Shown here one piece after another: positions 14,212 through 52,014 of a DNA stretch of 64,000 nucleotides. Every line of letters begins with the position of its first letter. Within the stretch, counting starts at the first letter, position 1. The translations under genes and the position numbers were made by a program. The DNA is from Falciphora oryzae (Eukaryota > Ascomycota > Sordariomycetes > Magnaporthales > Magnaporthaceae): positions 1,681,132 to 1,745,131 of the forward strand of contig JNVV01000005.1 of NCBI GenBank assembly GCA_000733355.1, in the 5' to 3' direction. The notes beneath the pieces were generated by a model. The model saw only the letters and a list, made by a program, of their open reading frames with translations. It was not told the DNA's origin and ran no database searches.

Positions 14212-15427
14212 TGCGGTGAAGACATTGAGAAACACAATAGAGGCAATTCTATGCGGGGCTTACGCGGCGCTTGGAGGCGGTGTTAGAGGTGACATCCGAA
14301 CGAGGACAAATGTGCCTCCGGCAGCCCGCCTGATGGATATGGCTCTGCTCTCGAGTGCCACGGAACCTCCAGTGGCCTTGATAAGAAAAGATGAAGGTCT
14401 CTAGAAATTATGTTGGATAAAACACGTGGAGAGCTGAGAGGGGAAGATCCGCAGGCGTCACCTCGATGACACTGGGGCGGATACCTCTGGATGCAGGCTG
14501 ACTGGCCCCGGCTCCTGGCATGCAGGGGCGCGGGGTTGGGCGGCTTAGCATAACACTAAAACTGCGGCCAAAGGCCCTGGCGGCCTGGAGGCCCCAAGGC
14601 CAGGAAGATAACAAGGGTGGGAGGCGAGAGGCAGCAGGGCTGAGCACAATCCAAGGAAGCGGAGCGGGAGGAATGCAGACAGCAGAGTGGCCTGCTCTCT
14701 GCAAATTCGAGAAGAATGTATGGAGCTGAAAAGGAGAAGGAGTCTACGAGGTTTGTATCAATTGCTCATCCTGACGAATTTCCGCATTTGGAAACATCAA
14801 ATATGGTGCTCGGTTTTCCCCGCACACCCCAGAGTTCGAAGATGGCTGGAGCCTGGGTTATGTTTCGGCCCATGAGCCAGGCCAACGACAGCAAAAACGG
14901 TAAGCATGAAGCTACGAAGACCCCTATGGCCGGCCATTGGGCGTGCCGGGATTTGCTGTCGCGGAACATCGGCCAGCGCATTCCTGCCGTCAGCTTTCCG
15001 GCGGTGAGTCACTGCCGCCGTCAATGGCTGGTCTAGGGCTGGGTCCTGCATGCACCCTAGCTAGCCTGGTTTGGTGTATGCGCGTTCGGCGGTTTGTTCA
15101 GCTGCGGTGCGAGCTTCCGCACAAACACCAGACAGGCAGCAGCCCCGCCGCCCCAAACGGCGCTGCGGCTGGATGCCGACAGATCCATGCCTGTGCGCCA
15201 GGCAGACAGCCAGGCAGGGAGGCGGCGATGGAAGAAGAGAGCGAGCGTATCAAGACAAGACCCCGAGCGGGGGGTGTTTGTGCTTACAAAAGGTCGGCCT
15301 TCACCCGCGATATTGACTCCTCGTTCTTGTCCTCAGTATCATCCTGTTCCTGGAGCTTCAACATCACAGCCTCCATCCCGAAAACAACTGAATTACTCCT
15401 CAAATCTCCCCACCCCAGACCGCAGAC
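14212..15427. other. Intergenic region upstream of the AAA+ gene
   Basis: These 1.2 kb contain only short overlapping frames without domains. The last few hundred bases are probably promoter and 5' UTR of the gene at 15428. The sequence just before that ATG is C/A-rich and the start context, gacATGg, is good. Confidence 0.5.
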
Positions 15428-18271
15428 ATGGCTAGAACCAAGCAAACAGCCCGGAAGACGACCAAGAAGAACAGTCAGCAGCAGACCGCCGGTCAGCGTC
15501 GCTGGCGGTCAGCGTCCAGCGAAGAGGAGCTGTCCGCCATGCGCCGCGAGGCCGAGCGCCGCAAGCAGATCTTCGACGACCGTCGCCGCACCACCGCCAA
15601 ATGGAGGGCCAAGATCCCCCAGGTCCGCAGGGTCAACTTCGAGAACTTCAAGAACCGCCTCCAGCCGGTTGGGGAGCCCGACTATGCCATCGATGTCCTG
15701 ATGGCTGGCCCCGGCATCCAGTCCCAGATCCGCCGGGAGCAGGGCCGCCGCCGCCGTGAAGACGCCGCCATTCGCCGCCGGAACCTGCTGGTCTTCAAGG
15801 GCCTCCAAGAGGACAATCTCGACGACATCATCGCCGAGAGGCTCAAGGATGGCTCAGGCAAAAACGACAAGAAGCAGGCCGAGACGGTCTACGGGCCCGA
15901 ATCTGAGATTGCACGCGTTCGCATCCAGTCCCAGCCTGTCCTGGGTCACCTCACTGCCCTCACCAACGACACCGAGAAACGGTCTACCCCGCGCACCTTC
16001 ATGAGGCCCTTCCAGACCCTCGTCTACTTCCAGCCCAAGATGCGAGAGATCCTGGCCGCCCTTGAGGAGAAGTGGGGTGACTACGAAGAGCTCGACGAGC
16101 CTGAGACTTCCCCCGACACCCCTGTCGAGGTGGAGGCCGAACCTGAGACCGTCATCACCGCCGAGGACATTGCTTCCGAGAAGGGTGACGGCATAGAGAC
16201 TGACGAGGATGAGGATGAGTTCCCCGACAACGTATCTCTCAAGTCTGTCGACTCCAACGAGGACGAGGACTTTGAGGGCCTCATGGATAGCCCGGAGGCC
16301 CTGAACGACATGCGCTGCTACGTTGAGTTTGTCGACAAGGAGATCATGCCTCTGTACCAGCACTTCGACGGCAACACCGCGAGCACGGTCAAGTTCGAGG
16401 ATCTCTGGTCCCTGTACCGGCCCGGCGACCTCATCTACATGCCCACTGGCGGCGACCCCGGCGGTCGGTACCACGAGGTCTGGCGCATCTACCGCGTGCG
16501 GGTGCCTGACCCCAAGATTTCCTTCGAGGAGACCGGCTGGGACTTTTGGGCCGATGATATCATGCAGTCTGACGACAACAACACGTTCGAGATCTCGGCA
16601 TACTACATCGACCACGACGGCACCAACCTGGGCGCCGTCCGCAACGTGTTCAAAATCGACTCCTTCGTCGGCGAGCGCGCCATCGAGTCGCTGCAGGTCT
16701 ACCCGATCCGGTACCGCCACGACCACCAGAAGCTCATCGAGTCGCTCAAGGACCAGGGCCGTAAGTTCATGAAGTACCTGCAGGTCGAGGAGCGCCACCA
16801 GCAGTACAGCGCCTGGACCATCACGCGCAACCCTCCCAACGAGAACACGGCCATTGAGGACGAGATCCTCGTGGACGAGAACTACGACAAGATGTTCCAC
16901 CCCGAGTACGTCGAGAGCGACGTCATCGTGGACCTGACCGAGGCATACCTCAAGCAGCCCAACTGGCGGCCCTGCTTCCACCACGTGTCGACCCACGTCT
17001 CGGTCGAGTGCGAGGCCGAGACGGACGAGATGCCTATCCGCCACTGGGTTGACCGCTCCCGGGGCCTACTCGCCTACGCGCAGGAGGAGATCGTGCAGAA
17101 GAAGGACGGCATCGAGATGCGCCAGCGCCGCGAGAACCTGGCCCTCGACACTTTCCTGCGCGTACGCGCCCAGGGCTCGCGCACCTTCGAGACCAACCCC
17201 AAGGACCTCGAACTGCGCGAGGAGGACCTGGTGCTGCTGCCCAAGCGCATGTTCGCCTACGCCCTGCGTGAGCGCCAGTTCTGGCCCATTGACCTCAACT
17301 TCCTCAAGCCCATCCGCCGCGAGCCCGGCGTGTTCGAGAACCTCAAGATCCAACGCGACTACAAGGACGTCGTGCGCAGCCTCGTCATGTCGCACTTCCA
17401 GAAGAAGGCGCTCGAGCGCCGCTACGCCGACGCCGCCATCGAGGGGCCCGGCCAGGACGTGATCCAGGGCAAGGGGCGCGGCCTGGTCGTGCTGCTTCAT
17501 GGCGTGCCGGGAGTGGGCAAGACGGCGACGGCCGAGGCCGTAGCCATGGAGAACAAGAAGCCGCTGTTCGTCATCACGTGCGGCGACCTCGGCCTGACTC
17601 CCAGCGAGGTTGAGAACTCGCTCAAGAACGTGTTCCGGCTCGCGCACCTGTGGGACTGCGTGCTGCTGCTCGACGAGGCCGACGTGTTCCTGTCGCAGCG
17701 GTCCAAGAACGACATGAAGCGCAACGCGCTCGTGTCCGTCTTCCTCCGCGTGCTTGAGTACTACAACGGCCTGCTCTTCCTGACCACCAACCGCGTGGGC
17801 GCCATCGACGAGGCCTTCAAGTCGCGCATCAACCTGTCGCTCTACTACCCGCCCCTCGACAAGACCCAGACGCGCGACATCTTCCGGCTCAACGTCGCCA
17901 AGCTGCGCAAGATCGAGTCGGAGCGCTCGCGCATGACGGGCGAGCCGGCCCTGGTGATCAAGGAGGCCGAGATCGTCGAGTTCGCGTCCAAGCACTACGA
18001 GGACCTCGCCCGCTCCACGGGCTGCTGGAACGGCCGCCAGATCCGCAGCGCCTTCCAGATTGCGTCCAGCCTCGCGCTGCACTCGTACTCGCAGCTGGCC
18101 GAGGAGGCCCGCGCAAAGGGCGAACTGCCGCCCGGCCCGCCCGTCCTGGACAGGAGCCTGTTTGAGAAGGTGCAGATGTCGACGCAGAGCTTCGACCGCC
18201 ACATGCGCAAGGAGAACGGCACTTTTGAGTCGCAGCTGCCGCTGCGAGGCACCTTTGCTGAGGAGGATTGA
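15428..18271 (+). CDS. AAA+ ATPase (DUF7025-type) with a histone H3-like N-terminus
   Basis: This intronless gene encodes 947 residues. After the initiator Met the protein reads ARTKQTARKTTKKN. The first nine residues are identical to the mature histone H3 tail and position 11 also matches; Ser10 is replaced by Thr. A basic coiled-coil-like stretch follows to about residue 75. Residues ~217-290 are strongly acidic. Around residues 300-430 lies a DUF7025-like domain containing LWSLYRPGD. The AAA+ core has Walker A GVPGVGKT at 692-699, Walker B VLLLDEAD at 745-752, sensor 1 TTNR near 786-789 and a K-S-R-I-N at about 798-802. A C-terminal lid with W-N-G-R-Q-I-R follows. ATP-driven remodelling is expected, but the substrate is unknown. 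A link to chromatin is inference from the N-terminus only. Confidence 0.9.
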   Translation: MARTKQTARKTTKKNSQQQTAGQRRWRSASSEEELSAMRREAERRKQIFDDRRRTTAKWRAKIPQVRRVNFENFKNRLQPVGEPDYAIDVLMAGPGIQSQIRREQGRRRREDAAIRRRNLLVFKGLQEDNLDDIIAERLKDGSGKNDKKQAETVYGPESEIARVRIQSQPVLGHLTALTNDTEKRSTPRTFMRPFQTLVYFQPKMREILAALEEKWGDYEELDEPETSPDTPVEVEAEPETVITAEDIASEKGDGIETDEDEDEFPDNVSLKSVDSNEDEDFEGLMDSPEALNDMRCYVEFVDKEIMPLYQHFDGNTASTVKFEDLWSLYRPGDLIYMPTGGDPGGRYHEVWRIYRVRVPDPKISFEETGWDFWADDIMQSDDNNTFEISAYYIDHDGTNLGAVRNVFKIDSFVGERAIESLQVYPIRYRHDHQKLIESLKDQGRKFMKYLQVEERHQQYSAWTITRNPPNENTAIEDEILVDENYDKMFHPEYVESDVIVDLTEAYLKQPNWRPCFHHVSTHVSVECEAETDEMPIRHWVDRSRGLLAYAQEEIVQKKDGIEMRQRRENLALDTFLRVRAQGSRTFETNPKDLELREEDLVLLPKRMFAYALRERQFWPIDLNFLKPIRREPGVFENLKIQRDYKDVVRSLVMSHFQKKALERRYADAAIEGPGQDVIQGKGRGLVVLLHGVPGVGKTATAEAVAMENKKPLFVITCGDLGLTPSEVENSLKNVFRLAHLWDCVLLLDEADVFLSQRSKNDMKRNALVSVFLRVLEYYNGLLFLTTNRVGAIDEAFKSRINLSLYYPPLDKTQTRDIFRLNVAKLRKIESERSRMTGEPALVIKEAEIVEFASKHYEDLARSTGCWNGRQIRSAFQIASSLALHSYSQLAEEARAKGELPPGPPVLDRSLFEKVQMSTQSFDRHMRKENGTFESQLPLRGTFAEED

Positions 18272-42029: not shown

Positions 42030-43592
42030 TTATGGCACTCTCCAGCCCGTCACGACATCGAACAATGTGTCTGTTGCACCGACGTTTCCGGGGAAAACAA
42101 TATAAGGGATTCCGGCCCACTTCGACTCCGGCTCGTCGCACCTCCATAGCGGCACGCCCGCAGCGGCCTGGCCTACGATCTCGGCTCGCTTGAACCGAAG
42201 GCCCTTTGTTGCCATATCGGACGACGTGATTCCTCCCTGTTGGGGGGAGATGTTAACGAAAGATGTTCCCCTAGTTGCGGGTAGGCAGGTGTGTGGGAGA
42301 GGCAGATAAACCTTTGCGATAACGTATCTTGGCCTTGTCTTCAGGTTAACCAGGAACGACACCAGCGCCGCGGCAACCGTGGACCCGATATCCAAACTCC
42401 TTGCGGCGTCTGATCCGACAACCAGCTTCCTGCTGGTCATGACAAGCACGTCCTGGCCCCTCGTGATCTCCTTCTCGGCCCGCTCGATCGCCCTCTTGAC
42501 CTCGCCCGAAACGCCCTCGCCCAGATCGCCACCCGACGCGTCCTTCTCCTCCAGCAGCTTCTCAACATCCAGCACGATCGCCGTCAGCGCATCCCCACTC
42601 CTCCTCGTTAGCGCCTCGAGCTGCGCCGTCGTCTTGGGCACGTACGAGCCGGCAATCACCAAGCCGCCCGCGTCCTTGGTAAACTTCAGCTGTGCCGCCG
42701 AGATGGGCGGGATGGGCGAGATGCCCAGCCGCGACGACACGAACGCCGCGCCCGTCCGGAAGAGGTATCTCCGGCCCTGCTCCGCAGCCCTTAGTAGCGC
42801 CAGCACAACGACGTCCACGTCCTCCTCGGCCGCCGCGTTGACGACGGCCACGCTGCCCTTGGATAGGGACAGGAGCTTCTTCAAGACCCGGTCCACGCCG
42901 TCTTGGGCGCGGATCTCGGAAGCCAACTCCAGGCTAGCGACGCGGTCGCGCGGGACGGCGGCGGCGCTCTTCTCGACGACGTACTCGCGCAAATTCGAGT
43001 TTGCGTAGCCAAAGGTTGCGTCGCGCGCAAAGGGCGTCTGCGCCGCGGGGACCAGCGTCTTCCCGTCTTCTGACGCGACGTAGTGGACGTCATCGAGGGT
43101 GTAGCGGCCGCCCTGCAGGAAAAAGGGGCACAGCAGGGTGGCGTCGGCCTCTCCCAGGACCTCGGACGCGACGTCGCACTCGAGCGGGAAGTGCCCCCGC
43201 AGCGTCGAGTCGCCGCGCAAGACGACCTCGAAGGACACGCCGGCGTCGGCGGCGGCGGCCTTGAGGTTGGTGCAGATCTCGCGGATCAGCGCCCGCGCCG
43301 GGCCCGGGTGCAGGGCGCGGCTGTTGGTCAGGATGAAGAAGCCGGAGCCGGGGGCGGTGCGCCGGAACTCGGCGGCGAGGGTGGTCTGGTCCCACACGGC
43401 CAGGACGGGGATGCCGTGGCAGGTCTGGGTGCCGGTCGGGTCGTCGTCCAGGCCGACCAGGATGGGGATCTTGGAGCCACCTGATGCGAGGACCTTGCGG
43501 ATCTCGGCGCGTGGGTTGGTTGTTGTCAGGGGTGGGAGCGCCGCCAGGGTGCTGGCTAGGTCCAGGGGCGGGGGGTCGCTGGGTGACGCCAT
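42030..43592 (-). CDS. Four-carbon acid sugar kinase family protein (DUF1537), one intron
   Basis: The predicted product has 495 residues after removal of an intron at 42237-42311. That intron is 75 bp (GTTTAT...CGTTAAC...CAACAG), a multiple of three, so it reads through as 25 extra codons. The N-terminal substrate-binding domain has DDDPTGTQ at 49-56 and LRGDSTLRGH at 125-134. The C-terminal nucleotide-binding domain, restored by splicing, reads YVIAK-GGITSSDMATKGL and ends with PYIVFPGNVGATDTLFD. Characterised bacterial members phosphorylate 3-oxo-tetronate or threonate-type acids for entry into central metabolism; the fungal substrate is unknown. The ATG at 43592 is preferred over an in-frame ATG at 43721. 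No aldolase or dehydrogenase partner is adjacent. Confidence 0.85.
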   Translation of the reverse strand: MASPSDPPPLDLASTLAALPPLTTTNPRAEIRKVLASGGSKIPILVGLDDDPTGTQTCHGIPVLAVWDQTTLAAEFRRTAPGSGFFILTNSRALHPGPARALIREICTNLKAAAADAGVSFEVVLRGDSTLRGHFPLECDVASEVLGEADATLLCPFFLQGGRYTLDDVHYVASEDGKTLVPAAQTPFARDATFGYANSNLREYVVEKSAAAVPRDRVASLELASEIRAQDGVDRVLKKLLSLSKGSVAVVNAAAEEDVDVVVLALLRAAEQGRRYLFRTGAAFVSSRLGISPIPPISAAQLKFTKDAGGLVIAGSYVPKTTAQLEALTRRSGDALTAIVLDVEKLLEEKDASGGDLGEGVSGEVKRAIERAEKEITRGQDVLVMTSRKLVVGSDAARSLDIGSTVAAALVSFLVNLKTRPRYVIAKVYLPLPHTCLPATRGTSFVNISPQQGGITSSDMATKGLRFKRAEIVGQAAAGVPLWRCDEPESKWAGIPYIVFPGNVGATDTLFDVVTGWRVP

Positions 43593-47949: not shown

Positions 47950-50900
47950 CTAGTCCTCCGGCGTCTCTGACCAAAAGCCTTTCCAATATGCCGCCCACCT
48001 CACCTCCAGCTCAGCCACCCACTGCTTGACCGGGATCTCCTTCTCCCCGATCCTCATCCTCCCCTCGCGGATGCCCCTCCACTCCTCGACGGGTCCCTTG
48101 ATGTGCGTGTGGCCCCTGGGGCAGACAACCCGCCAGTAAGGGTCCTTTTCCCCACGTTCCCCTGCCAGTTTGTCCTCCATGCACGCTTCGCATATTTCGG
48201 TATCAATTCATTGCACGCAGCGGTATGAAGCGCCCTCTTCCCAAATCTAGATGCCTTTTGGGCAAATGTCGCACGGGTAACGCCGCCTCATCGAGTTGGG
48301 GAGCAGCCCCTCGCGGATCTCGTCCTTGAGCGTTGTCGGTGCTTCGGTCGTCTTGTCTTCGTTGCTCGCGGCGGTAGGGGCTTTGTTTTCTGTTCGTCCC
48401 TCTCCTTTCTGTTCTTCCTTTACTTGTTGTTCTTCCTCTTCTTTTCGTTCTCCTTCTTCTTTCTGTTCCTCCTTTTGTGGCGGTGGCGAATACGGCAGAT
48501 TGTCGTCCTCGCCCTTAGCGCCGCCCGCGTCCGGGGACTGGGGTTCTGTTTCTGCCGCCTCCTTCGTCTGCTGCTCGTCCGCAGGTTCTGCCCCCTCGCC
48601 CCCGCCGTCAGAGCTTTTGGACTCGGCCTCCTCGCGACGAAAGATATCATCGTCGAGGATATACTCCTGGGCGGTGTATGCGATTTGGGCGTCGTGCTCA
48701 AGGCCGTCGACGCACATGAGCACTTTGGACAGCAGCCGGAGGCTTTGGAAGTCGTTAGCCCCGGTGTCATCTTTGAGTCCCTCGATGCAGGCGTTGAAAG
48801 TGGTCTGGAGCACGTCAGCGTAGTCGAGCGCCGGACCCAACTTGCGGAGCATTAGGCCCAGCAGCACCACCGTGTCTGATCTGACGGGGTCGAAATCTGG
48901 GACATCATTTTCCAGTCTGGTCCGACGCTCGCAGCTCCTCGAGAGCGGAATTTTTCGTATTTGGCACAGACGAGTGCCGAAACTGTTCGAAGAGCAGCTG
49001 CGCCAACAGGTCGGCCGCCTCGCTCATGTAGTAGCTCGGTATTTGAGGCTCGGCGAGAAGAGTGCGCAGTCGATTCTTGGCTTCTTCCCCCTGGCCCATC
49101 GCCGACCACGCGAACTGGGCTGCAACGTCGAGGGTCCGGGCTCGCGACCGATAGAGTTTCTCCCTCGCGGCGTACTGGCTGGTCGAGTCCAGTAGCTCGA
49201 GCATGGCCTCGCATTCGCCTTCTCGCTTTGCCGCGCGGAACATGGGGTCATAGAGGCTTGACGATGTAAAAAGGTTCATCCTGTCATCGTCACTGACCGA
49301 TCTGACCAGATCGAGTACCAGCGACGCCTTGCCGCCATCCACCATCGCACTGATTATTTCGTCCAGGAAGCCCAACGGGATCCCACCTTCTCCATACGCA
49401 GTGAATTGCTTGATGCTGGCAAGACTTGCCTCGAAGTTGCCTATTCCGGCGCAGGCAAGAGCATGGTTGCTCAGCACACTCCATACCCAACCGTCGGCGA
49501 ACGCGCCGTGTTTGGTAACGTCTGGGTTCTGCGATACTTGCGCGTCGCGGATCTTGATTGCCTCGGCCAATGTCTCGACCGCTTGCGCCATCAGCTCCTT
49601 GGAATGACTAGGGCCGAAGGCGCTCACGCTTTGGGCGAGGCTGAGGAAGGCGTCGCCTTTGCTGATGATTGCGTCGTATCGTTCCGCCTCCTTGTTTGCG
49701 CCCTCCTCCACCAGCGACAGGCTGAGGTCGAGCCGAGCAATGGCCGGCTCGAACATTTCTGCCACTGTCATCGCCCTGGCGATGCCCCGGTGGGAGGCTG
49801 CCGTCTTGACGATGTCCCAGAAGGCGTTGGCGACTACATCGAACGAGTCGACGGTCTCTTCGTCGCTGTCCGGGTGCTTCTCGAAATACTCACGCAAACT
49901 GGGATTCTGCCTCAGTTCGGGGAGGCGGGAACCTGCCCTGAGAGTGTTTTGTGCGACCTTAAAGGACACGAATGCCTCCTCTGTTGATTCGGCAGAGAAC
50001 CAGTTGTTGATATGGCTGCGCGCCAAAGTTATGGAAACACGCGTCGGCTCGGCCGCCAACGGGCGGTACCAGTCAGCAAGACCGTAGGGCAATATCCCAG
50101 GAGGCAACTTCAATGCTCTTCTTGCCCATGTCTGAAGGCAACTCATGACATCGGTGTCCTCTCCACCGAAAGCGTGGCTAGGTGCGTCGAGCACGGTGGT
50201 TGTGGGTGACAGGCCAAGCTCGATTTGCCTCAGCGCGTTGTTCTTGTTGCTCAGTAGGCTGTGTATCGACTCAAGCACTTCCGCAGCCTGCGCATCGCTG
50301 ATCTTGTCCATGTCAATGGCCAGGAAGTGGGAGTTCCAGTTCGCGGCGGAATATGTTGCCAGGTTCTCCGAATAGAGCTTTTCCTCGCTTGATGTCCTCA
50401 GGACGGCAATGCTCATCCGGAGTATGATAGCATGCGCATCGGACGGGCTGCATTTCAGCCCTTGCTCGTTCTCGCCCGCTTGCCGGAAGAAGGCTCGCAG
50501 CGACCCCTCCTGGAAGCCGAGGATGTTGTCGGCACCATGATCCTCGGTCACTCCATGCTCGTCAGTCTTGGAATCCGACTTGTCCGAGTCGCTGACATCC
50601 GAGTCCTGCGCCTTGGTGTCGTCGTCTTGGCTTCTTGAGATGCGGAGTAGGCGCGATGATCGCCCATCCAACCCTCTTCGATGCTGATTGAGTTCTCCTG
50701 GGCGACGATGGCGATGATCTTGGAGGCCTCGGCGATCGTCACTTCGTCGTTCGCGTACGCCAGCCAGGTAAAAAGGCTCCGCAGAACCTCCAGCTCGCCA
50801 GGCGTGCGGTTCCTTTTGCACTCGTTGATAAGCTGGAACATCTTGAAGGAGATTGTGGACCCGCCCATGCCGGGCTTCCCGGAAAGCCACAGCGACCGCG

Positions 50901-52014
50901 AACGCTCTTCGGCAACATCCTCGAAAAGAGGCTCTGCTTCGATCCACTGAAACATGCGCGGATTTATCAGCTCGAACTCGTCTAGGCGGGCCCGCATCGC
51001 CCCCTCGCCCTGGTTGAGAAGATACGCGCGCAGCTGCTCCAGGTTTGCGGTCTTGGTGGCGAGGCCGGGCTTCAGGCCCCAGCGTTTCTTGCCGCCCTGT
51101 ATCCTTTCGAGGCTGAGGCGGATCTGGTCGTGCTGCCGCAGTAGTGTCTGCCCCACCATCGCGCTTTTATGGCTGTTGACAAGTAGATCCCTGACCCCGG
51201 CGCCTGTTTCCATCGCGGCATTCATGGTGCGCTCGCTTAGCACCAGTGTCTGTTCTGTCATGGTCGTGTTTTTGTCCATGGACCCCTGGAGCTCCCTAAC
51301 GTGTCCTGACAGCGCCGAGACCCCTTCTTTGGTGGCCTTGGCCTCCTCGTGCGTTTCGATGGCGGTGCGCAGCGTCTGGATGAGCACGGCAGACTCGAGG
51401 CGCCGCAGATTCTCTTTGAGGTTATCGAGCGCGTCTTGCAGCTCTTCGTCCGTCCCATCAACAAGCGCCTTGGCCCACTTCATGAAGCGACCCTTGAGGC
51501 AGTAGGAGCGCGCAATGCCGGATACGCATAGCATGGACGAGAAGACTTCGACCACGAACTTCTGGAATTCTGGCAGCCGCGGCAGCTTGCCTTCCAGCAG
51601 GAACAGACGCTCGAGGAACGAGTTCATCAGGTCGAAGAAGTCCAAAATAACGTTGTAGTCGTCGCTGACATGCTTGCTGGCGTTCAGGATGTAGGTGAAG
51701 GCCGTCAGGATGGCTGAAGACGGCGGGAAGGCGCCGCTGGCAGCGTTCGCGACAAGCGCGGCCACGCTCTGGATCACGTCGGCGTTCCGCGCGATGACGG
51801 TCCGCAGCTTGTCGGCCTTCCCCTTGTTGTGGCGGAAGCCAACAAAGGCCTGGAGCTGTTGCTGCTGGTCCATCATGATGGAGTTGATGGACTTCTGCGG
51901 CTGCATCGCCTTGCGAATGTCCACCTTGGTCCGGTCTGAGTACGAGGTCAGCGCCTTGTCCCACAGCGCTGCCACGTCCGTCTGCTGCCCATCGCCGCCG
52001 TTGGCGGACTCCAT
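47950..52014 (-). pseudogene. Goodbye-domain STAND (NLR-like) protein, degenerate
   Basis: From the ATG at 52014 the N-terminal ~230 residues match the fungal STAND Goodbye domain (LWDKALTSYSDRT start, helical, FVGFRHNKGKADKLRTVI). At residues ~379-388 a P-loop reads GKPGMGGST; the lysine of GKS/T is Gly (codon 50860-50862). The NACHT middle appears deleted: soon after the P-loop comes RTPGELEVLRSLFTWLAYA, which normally follows the core. A one-base shift near 50670 changes frame. The next ~640 residues are helical and TPR-like. A second shift lies near 48915. The C-terminus encodes a ZZ-type zinc finger (CDIC...YRC...ICEAC) interrupted by TAG at 48247-48249 and TGA at 48208-48210. Intact relatives act as intracellular immune-type receptors; this copy is probably dead. 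Confidence 0.75.

Follow-up and report, generated by a model that had tools for sequence, protein, structure and literature searches.

A histone H3-like N-terminus on a DUF7025-type AAA+ ATPase of Falciphora oryzae and its lysine-less counterpart in a distant paralogue

The H3-like start and the ATPase that carries it

A DUF7025-type fungal AAA+ ATPase, recognized by its open reading frame and Pfam matches as a single-exon ORF of 947 amino acids (947 codons and a stop; 15428..18271, + strand), begins with what looks, judged from the sequence, like a real copy of the tip of histone H3. It lies in the window, by which the whole 64,000-nucleotide stretch of DNA analysed here is meant. The ORF starts MARTKQTARKTT, and a longer piece of the same start reads MARTKQTARKTTKKNSQQQTAGQRRWRS. 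From the ATG at 15428, nucleotides 15431-15457 encode ARTKQTARK and 15458-15463 encode TT, which together make up the H3-tail-like N-terminus defined by alignment to H3 (15431..15463, + strand). Residues 2-10 of the protein are identical to H3 residues 1-9 at all nine positions; Ser10 of H3 is replaced by Thr, Thr11 is kept, and the likeness ends after residue 11 of the mature chain. Removal of the initiator Met is expected where Ala follows, and H3 residues 1-9 would then be exposed in the window protein. A phmmer search of the PDB with the first 21 residues gave 116 matches at E<=10 (best E 0.033), the best 60 of which are without exception annotated as histone H3 or H3 peptides, and in the alignment to H3 residues 1-10 are identical, Met included. 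The exact copy of H3 residues 1-9 claimed in the original prediction is borne out by this identity and by the names of the matches.

The rest of the protein is an ATPase. An acidic stretch at residues 226-300 (16103..16327, + strand), with net charges of -8, -9 and -8 per 25 residues, precedes the DUF7025 domain at residues 316-430 (16373..16717, + strand; Pfam E 4e-22), and an AAA ATPase domain at residues 688-806 (17489..17845, + strand; E 1e-18) is followed by the fungal AAA+ lid domain AAA_lid_13 at residues 810-929 (17855..18214, + strand; E 9.4e-8). All three domains score above their curated cut-offs (78.8 bits against 27, 68.5 against 21.2 and 32.8 against 27, respectively). Six weaker Pfam matches were found besides these at E<=1, and neither a histone domain (PF00125) nor a bromodomain is among the matches at that threshold. 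The ATPase motifs are intact, with GVPGVGKT at residue 692, VLLLDEAD at 745, TTNR at 786 and FKSRI at 797, which we take to be the Walker A, Walker B, sensor 1 and arginine-finger-like motifs. Thus the protein is, as had been proposed, a complete AAA+ ATPase without a histone fold. Its best relatives in the PDB are NVL, a VCP-like ATPase and Rix7, and no relatives were found in the bacterial/archaeal and viral contigs searched, as expected for a fungal family. A structure prediction made without an alignment gave a mean pLDDT of 34.9 and was set aside.

A second carrier and the position of the motif

A distant DUF7025-AAA+ paralogue, G000:C4:834404 (locus L031, position 2405), starts MARTHQTARR, and its full start is MARTHQTARRAKPQDEPDSDYTGDEDE. 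It is a true member of the family, with DUF7025 in its first exon (E 8e-27), AAA in its second (E 7e-17) and intact ATPase motifs. The paralogue keeps A1, R2, T3, Q5, T6, A7 and R8, whereas K4 is replaced by His and K9 by Arg. The two starts agree in 8 of the first 10 residues, and in 8 of 11 when the first 11 are aligned. Elsewhere the proteins have diverged: identity is 42% over 269 columns of the AAA domain and falls to 19% across 155 aligned columns around DUF7025. Different codons are used at four of the seven shared non-Met residues, amounting to five synonymous nucleotide differences, and the distance between the carriers together with these codon differences makes the second start neither a recent copy nor the product of a recent conversion. 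The earlier claim that the motif is not a simple recent exon capture is upheld on this ground, since the shared residues are written in different codons. The upstream DNA of the two carriers shares short matches only (best 26 nt, 85%, E 0.011), and a shared promoter or recent conversion, considered as an explanation, was rejected on that account.

K4 and K9 are two of the classical methylation sites of H3. His and Arg at these positions fit poorly with a tag that serves solely for K4/K9 methylation, and the suggestion that modification of these lysines is the general function of the motif is therefore not supported, although, with two sequences to compare, the lysines of the paralogue may have been lost by simple decay. 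On their own, the paralogue's first 21 residues gave no match to any PDB chain at E<=10, not even to H3, which counts against calling its start an H3 mimic by similarity alone. After the motif, the paralogue has a strongly acidic stretch with a net charge of -10 over residues 26-50.

In both genes the arrangement is the same: an in-frame stop, then an ATG, then the motif. In the window, the stop at 15389-15391 (+ strand) is separated from the ATG at 15428 by 12 sense codons without an in-frame ATG, and this ATG has G at -3 and G at +4. Since two genes carry the motif exactly at the ATG, a true start is the simplest reading, and the original placement of the copy at the very start of the ORF agrees with 15428 being the first in-frame ATG after the stop. 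Three out-of-frame ATGs are present in the 300 nt upstream (15173, 15187 and 15228); the frames from the last two extend past 15428, and these ATGs would hinder initiation there if they lay within the transcript. The motif would be internal if an upstream exon were spliced in frame, for example from a donor at 14900 to an acceptor ending at 15425. A donor-like site GTAAGC does exist at 14900 in an ORF from ATG 14842, as do an acceptor-like site and a short upstream ORF beginning MAGAWVMFRPMSQANDSKN. However, such an exon would require an intron of 526 nt, against a family intron span of about 55 to 89 nt obtained from four clean exon breaks (L037, L040, L041 and L043), and in the second carrier, too, the motif starts right at an ATG that closely follows an in-frame stop, so that internal placement is highly improbable.

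The DUF7025/AAA+ family looks much expanded in this genome, with at least 57 matching stretches when counted exon by exon (48 of 88 candidates scored). Twenty further family loci, a part of the family (L028-L047), were read, and among their 1240 scored ATG-started peptides the motif was found at one locus only, that of the second carrier. The second-best score (28 against 51) belonged to MPRKRQTARASN at L032:438, which lies about 3.6 kb upstream of the AAA match of its locus and was not counted. In an unrooted AAA tree of 21 rows including the window gene (L018 and L038 dropped at 114 columns each, L045 giving no row), the window gene groups with L041 at a support of 0.995. The likely start of L041, this closest relative in the tree, reads MAEVKPPETQ by eye. 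The second carrier joins L024, L033, L034, L036, L039 and L047, a group supported at 0.921 without it and 0.875 with it, and the two carriers are thus non-sisters. The motif would then be either old and lost in most members or arisen twice, and we infer from these sequences that both histories point to selection.

Searches of the genome gave the same two genes. The pattern M[AP]RTxQTARx, with VAN codons at position 4, was drawn up after MARTHQTARR had been seen in the second carrier among the 20 loci read for codon background; an earlier pattern, allowing up to two mismatches, had missed that start. It covered the unmasked, unspliced part of the 50.2 Mb genome (123 contigs), where masked or intron-split starts escape, and found two zero-mismatch places, the window gene and the second carrier. 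With two mismatches, two more places appeared, against one match each for the forward and reverse controls. A looser pattern (any codon at position 4, looser Arg and Thr) returned the same two places only, with controls of 0 and 0. The genome's own H3 start was expected to match these patterns, yet it was not found in the unmasked, unspliced DNA.

Coincidence, capture and codon usage

The chance of ARTKQTARK at a gene start was estimated as about 1-2e-11 per gene, given the residue composition found in 54 other ORFs of the genome, which are mechanical ORFs, some perhaps not real gene starts, with the window gene left out and the second carrier left in. The value rises to 3e-9 if the window gene's own basic first 70 residues are used. 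For 12,000 genes, an assumed number, the expectation is about 1e-7 to 4e-5 before correction for the windows and motifs scanned. The sample for composition and codon usage was the window plus 24 loci (192,893 bases, ORFs below 200 amino acids left out), and for both the ARTKQTARK chance and the codon usage 2 of the 57 ORFs were dropped for low GC3. Because many windows and motifs were scanned, the single-gene values alone leave chance unsettled. Their look-elsewhere effect is large, and the composition model may underestimate how often basic, Thr- and Gln-rich starts occur; the motif could in that case be a coincidence drawn from very many windows and motifs. Against this stand not only the per-gene values of about 1e-11 to 3e-9 but an independent second match, whose presence within the same family means that the motif is no one-gene coincidence. 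The chance that one of 40 relatives, an assumed family size, starts M-A-R-T-x-Q-T-A-R is about 3e-7, or about 4e-5 with all seven residue frequencies doubled, on a composition without both carriers (55 of 57 ORFs kept). Coincidence is accordingly regarded as very unlikely.

The codons of the motif had been cited as unusual and as evidence on its origin. Within the window gene some are indeed rare (GCT 3/60, AGA 0/83, CAA 2/42 and ACA 0/43), and that part of the claim stands. For the genome they are unremarkable: by rarity of codons 2-8 the window start ranks 8 of 55 ORFs, and synonymous draws gave an equally rare or rarer start in 1027 of 10000 cases with body usage and 1702 of 10000 with start usage. 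Odd codons as evidence on origin are ruled out by this result.

The motif could also be a functionless relic, left when an ancestral member of the family acquired a piece of an H3 gene at its 5' end, as the exactness of the window start and the presence of degenerate H3-like fragments elsewhere in the genome, one of them beside a repeat, might suggest. Seven residues have nevertheless been kept in two distant genes despite changed synonymous sites, the likeness to H3 extends no further than residue 11 of the mature protein, and the fragments seen (L004 and L005) are of the H3 core and not of the tail, all of which makes a relic quite unlikely. The genome's five PF00125 places do not include a canonical H3 gene. 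Read from their translations, they are a CENP-A-like gene (L002), an NF-YC-like gene (L003), the two degenerate H3-like fragments (L004 and L005) and a fragment beside masked letters (L006). The degenerate core fragments lie at L004:1501-1683 and L005:1501-1677, and the former overlaps a repeat edge. With L004:1300-1800 as query, at least 42 further matches were found, and 39 of them stop at query base 228-235.

Proposed function and relation to known systems

A model is proposed in which the first nine or ten residues make up a true short linear motif imitating the H3 tip and docking to a chromatin protein, a tentative reading drawn from the two starts to which we give a probability of about 0.45. 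Removal of Met would free the A-R-T-x-Q-T-A-R end of the window protein, and the freed end would dock into a chromatin protein whose usual ligand is the N-terminus of H3, either bringing the AAA+ ATPase to chromatin or letting it compete with H3. Recognition would probably depend on the shared A1, R2, T3, Q5, T6, A7 and R8, since the divergent second carrier keeps these but has His and Arg for K4 and K9. Methylation of K4 and K9 or phosphorylation of T3, T10 and T11 would be optional regulation, confined to the window protein. Candidate partners are, for R2, the pocket of a WD40 protein of the WDR5/Swd3 type; a demethylase of the LSD1 type, to which SNAG domains bind; a PHD finger specific for unmodified K4; and a BIR protein. 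Domain matches to putative readers and writers in the genome include 22 places for SET, 4 for SWIRM and 3 for BIR. Chromodomain places number at least 150 (150 of 287 candidates scored), and many lie in short frames with stop codons, which suggests broken chromodomain transposons. Several considerations weigh against docking: a motif carried by only one of the 20 further family loci, and missing from the likely start of L041, is sparsely distributed; the second carrier has neither key lysine, and its start gave no PDB match; and N-terminal acetylation of Ala is common and would shut out readers that depend on a free amino terminus.

Alternatively, the motif may have been selected or inherited in some DUF7025 AAA+ proteins for a job unrelated to H3 readers, such as nuclear import, N-terminal processing or partner binding within the family, and its H3 likeness would be convergent. 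The second carrier, which is without K4 and K9 and whose start alone matches no H3 chain, suits such a job. The window carrier, however, reproduces H3 1-9 without one difference, an exactness that a loosely basic signal would not require, and a mitochondrial presequence is unlikely because the first 31 residues hold no Leu, Ile, Val or Phe. A job unrelated to H3 readers is therefore deemed a serious but somewhat unlikely reading. Helical moments near the start peak at 0.36 and 0.26, which likewise makes such a presequence unlikely.

A bolder extension of the docking model is that N-terminal decoys of H3 evolved in the AAA+ family, perhaps repeatedly, with the window protein as a substrate-like copy open to H3-like methylation and phosphorylation and the second carrier, unmethylatable at positions 4 and 9, as a pseudo-substrate for an H3-tail enzyme. 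On the two sequences this seems unlikely, and if it were true, ATP-driven remodelling or inhibition would be brought to H3-reading enzymes.

Histone mimicry is a known kind of phenomenon, and histone mimics are mostly short, partial and internal. The window protein resembles the H3 tail in residues 1-9, in T11 and in the position at the very start, and differs from histone H3 in the lack of a histone match, in Thr for S10, in the lack of likeness from residue 12 onward and in the attached AAA+ ATPase. SNAG-type mimics that bind LSD1 are likewise short N-terminal peptides imitating the H3 tip, but they are loosely H3-like and sit on zinc-finger repressors, whereas the copy described here is exact and sits on an AAA+ ATPase. 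ARKS/ARKT mimics such as those of G9a and influenza NS1 have a parallel in ARKT at mature residues 7-10 of the window protein; they are internal or C-terminal and span a few residues, in contrast to nine residues at the start. Domain order and ATPase motifs are those of the DUF7025/AAA/AAA_lid_13 fungal ATPases, of which only two with an H3-like start were found in the unmasked, unspliced DNA of this genome. The AAA+ histone chaperones Yta7, Abo1 and ATAD2, which handle the H3 tail, also combine AAA+ with an acidic stretch, but the window protein has its nearest PDB relatives in NVL, the VCP-like ATPase and Rix7 and shows no bromodomain match. An exact nine-residue N-terminal H3 copy on an AAA+ ATPase, together with a lysine-less distant paralogue, would, as far as is known, be new. 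Comparison of the two carriers offers a natural way to learn which residues of H3 a reader requires. Furthermore, if the copy is exposed as proposed, antibodies against the H3 N-terminus used in such fungi for ChIP or blots could detect a non-histone protein.

As for its surroundings, about 1 kb separates the end of the gene from an AT-rich block at 19200-40000 of the window (GC 0.42, TA/AT 1.17, (CA+TG)/(AC+GT) 0.83), in which no ATG-started ORF of at least 150 amino acids was found. By the usual thresholds, the block looks like DNA affected by repeat-induced point mutation (RIP). Beyond it, 42033-43592 (- strand) encodes a protein that has a sugar-binding domain, SBD_N, and a nucleotide-binding one, NBD_C, and 50551-52014 (- strand) encodes the N-terminus of a fungal STAND protein, with a Goodbye domain at E 4e-18 and an NPHP3_N match below the cut-off.
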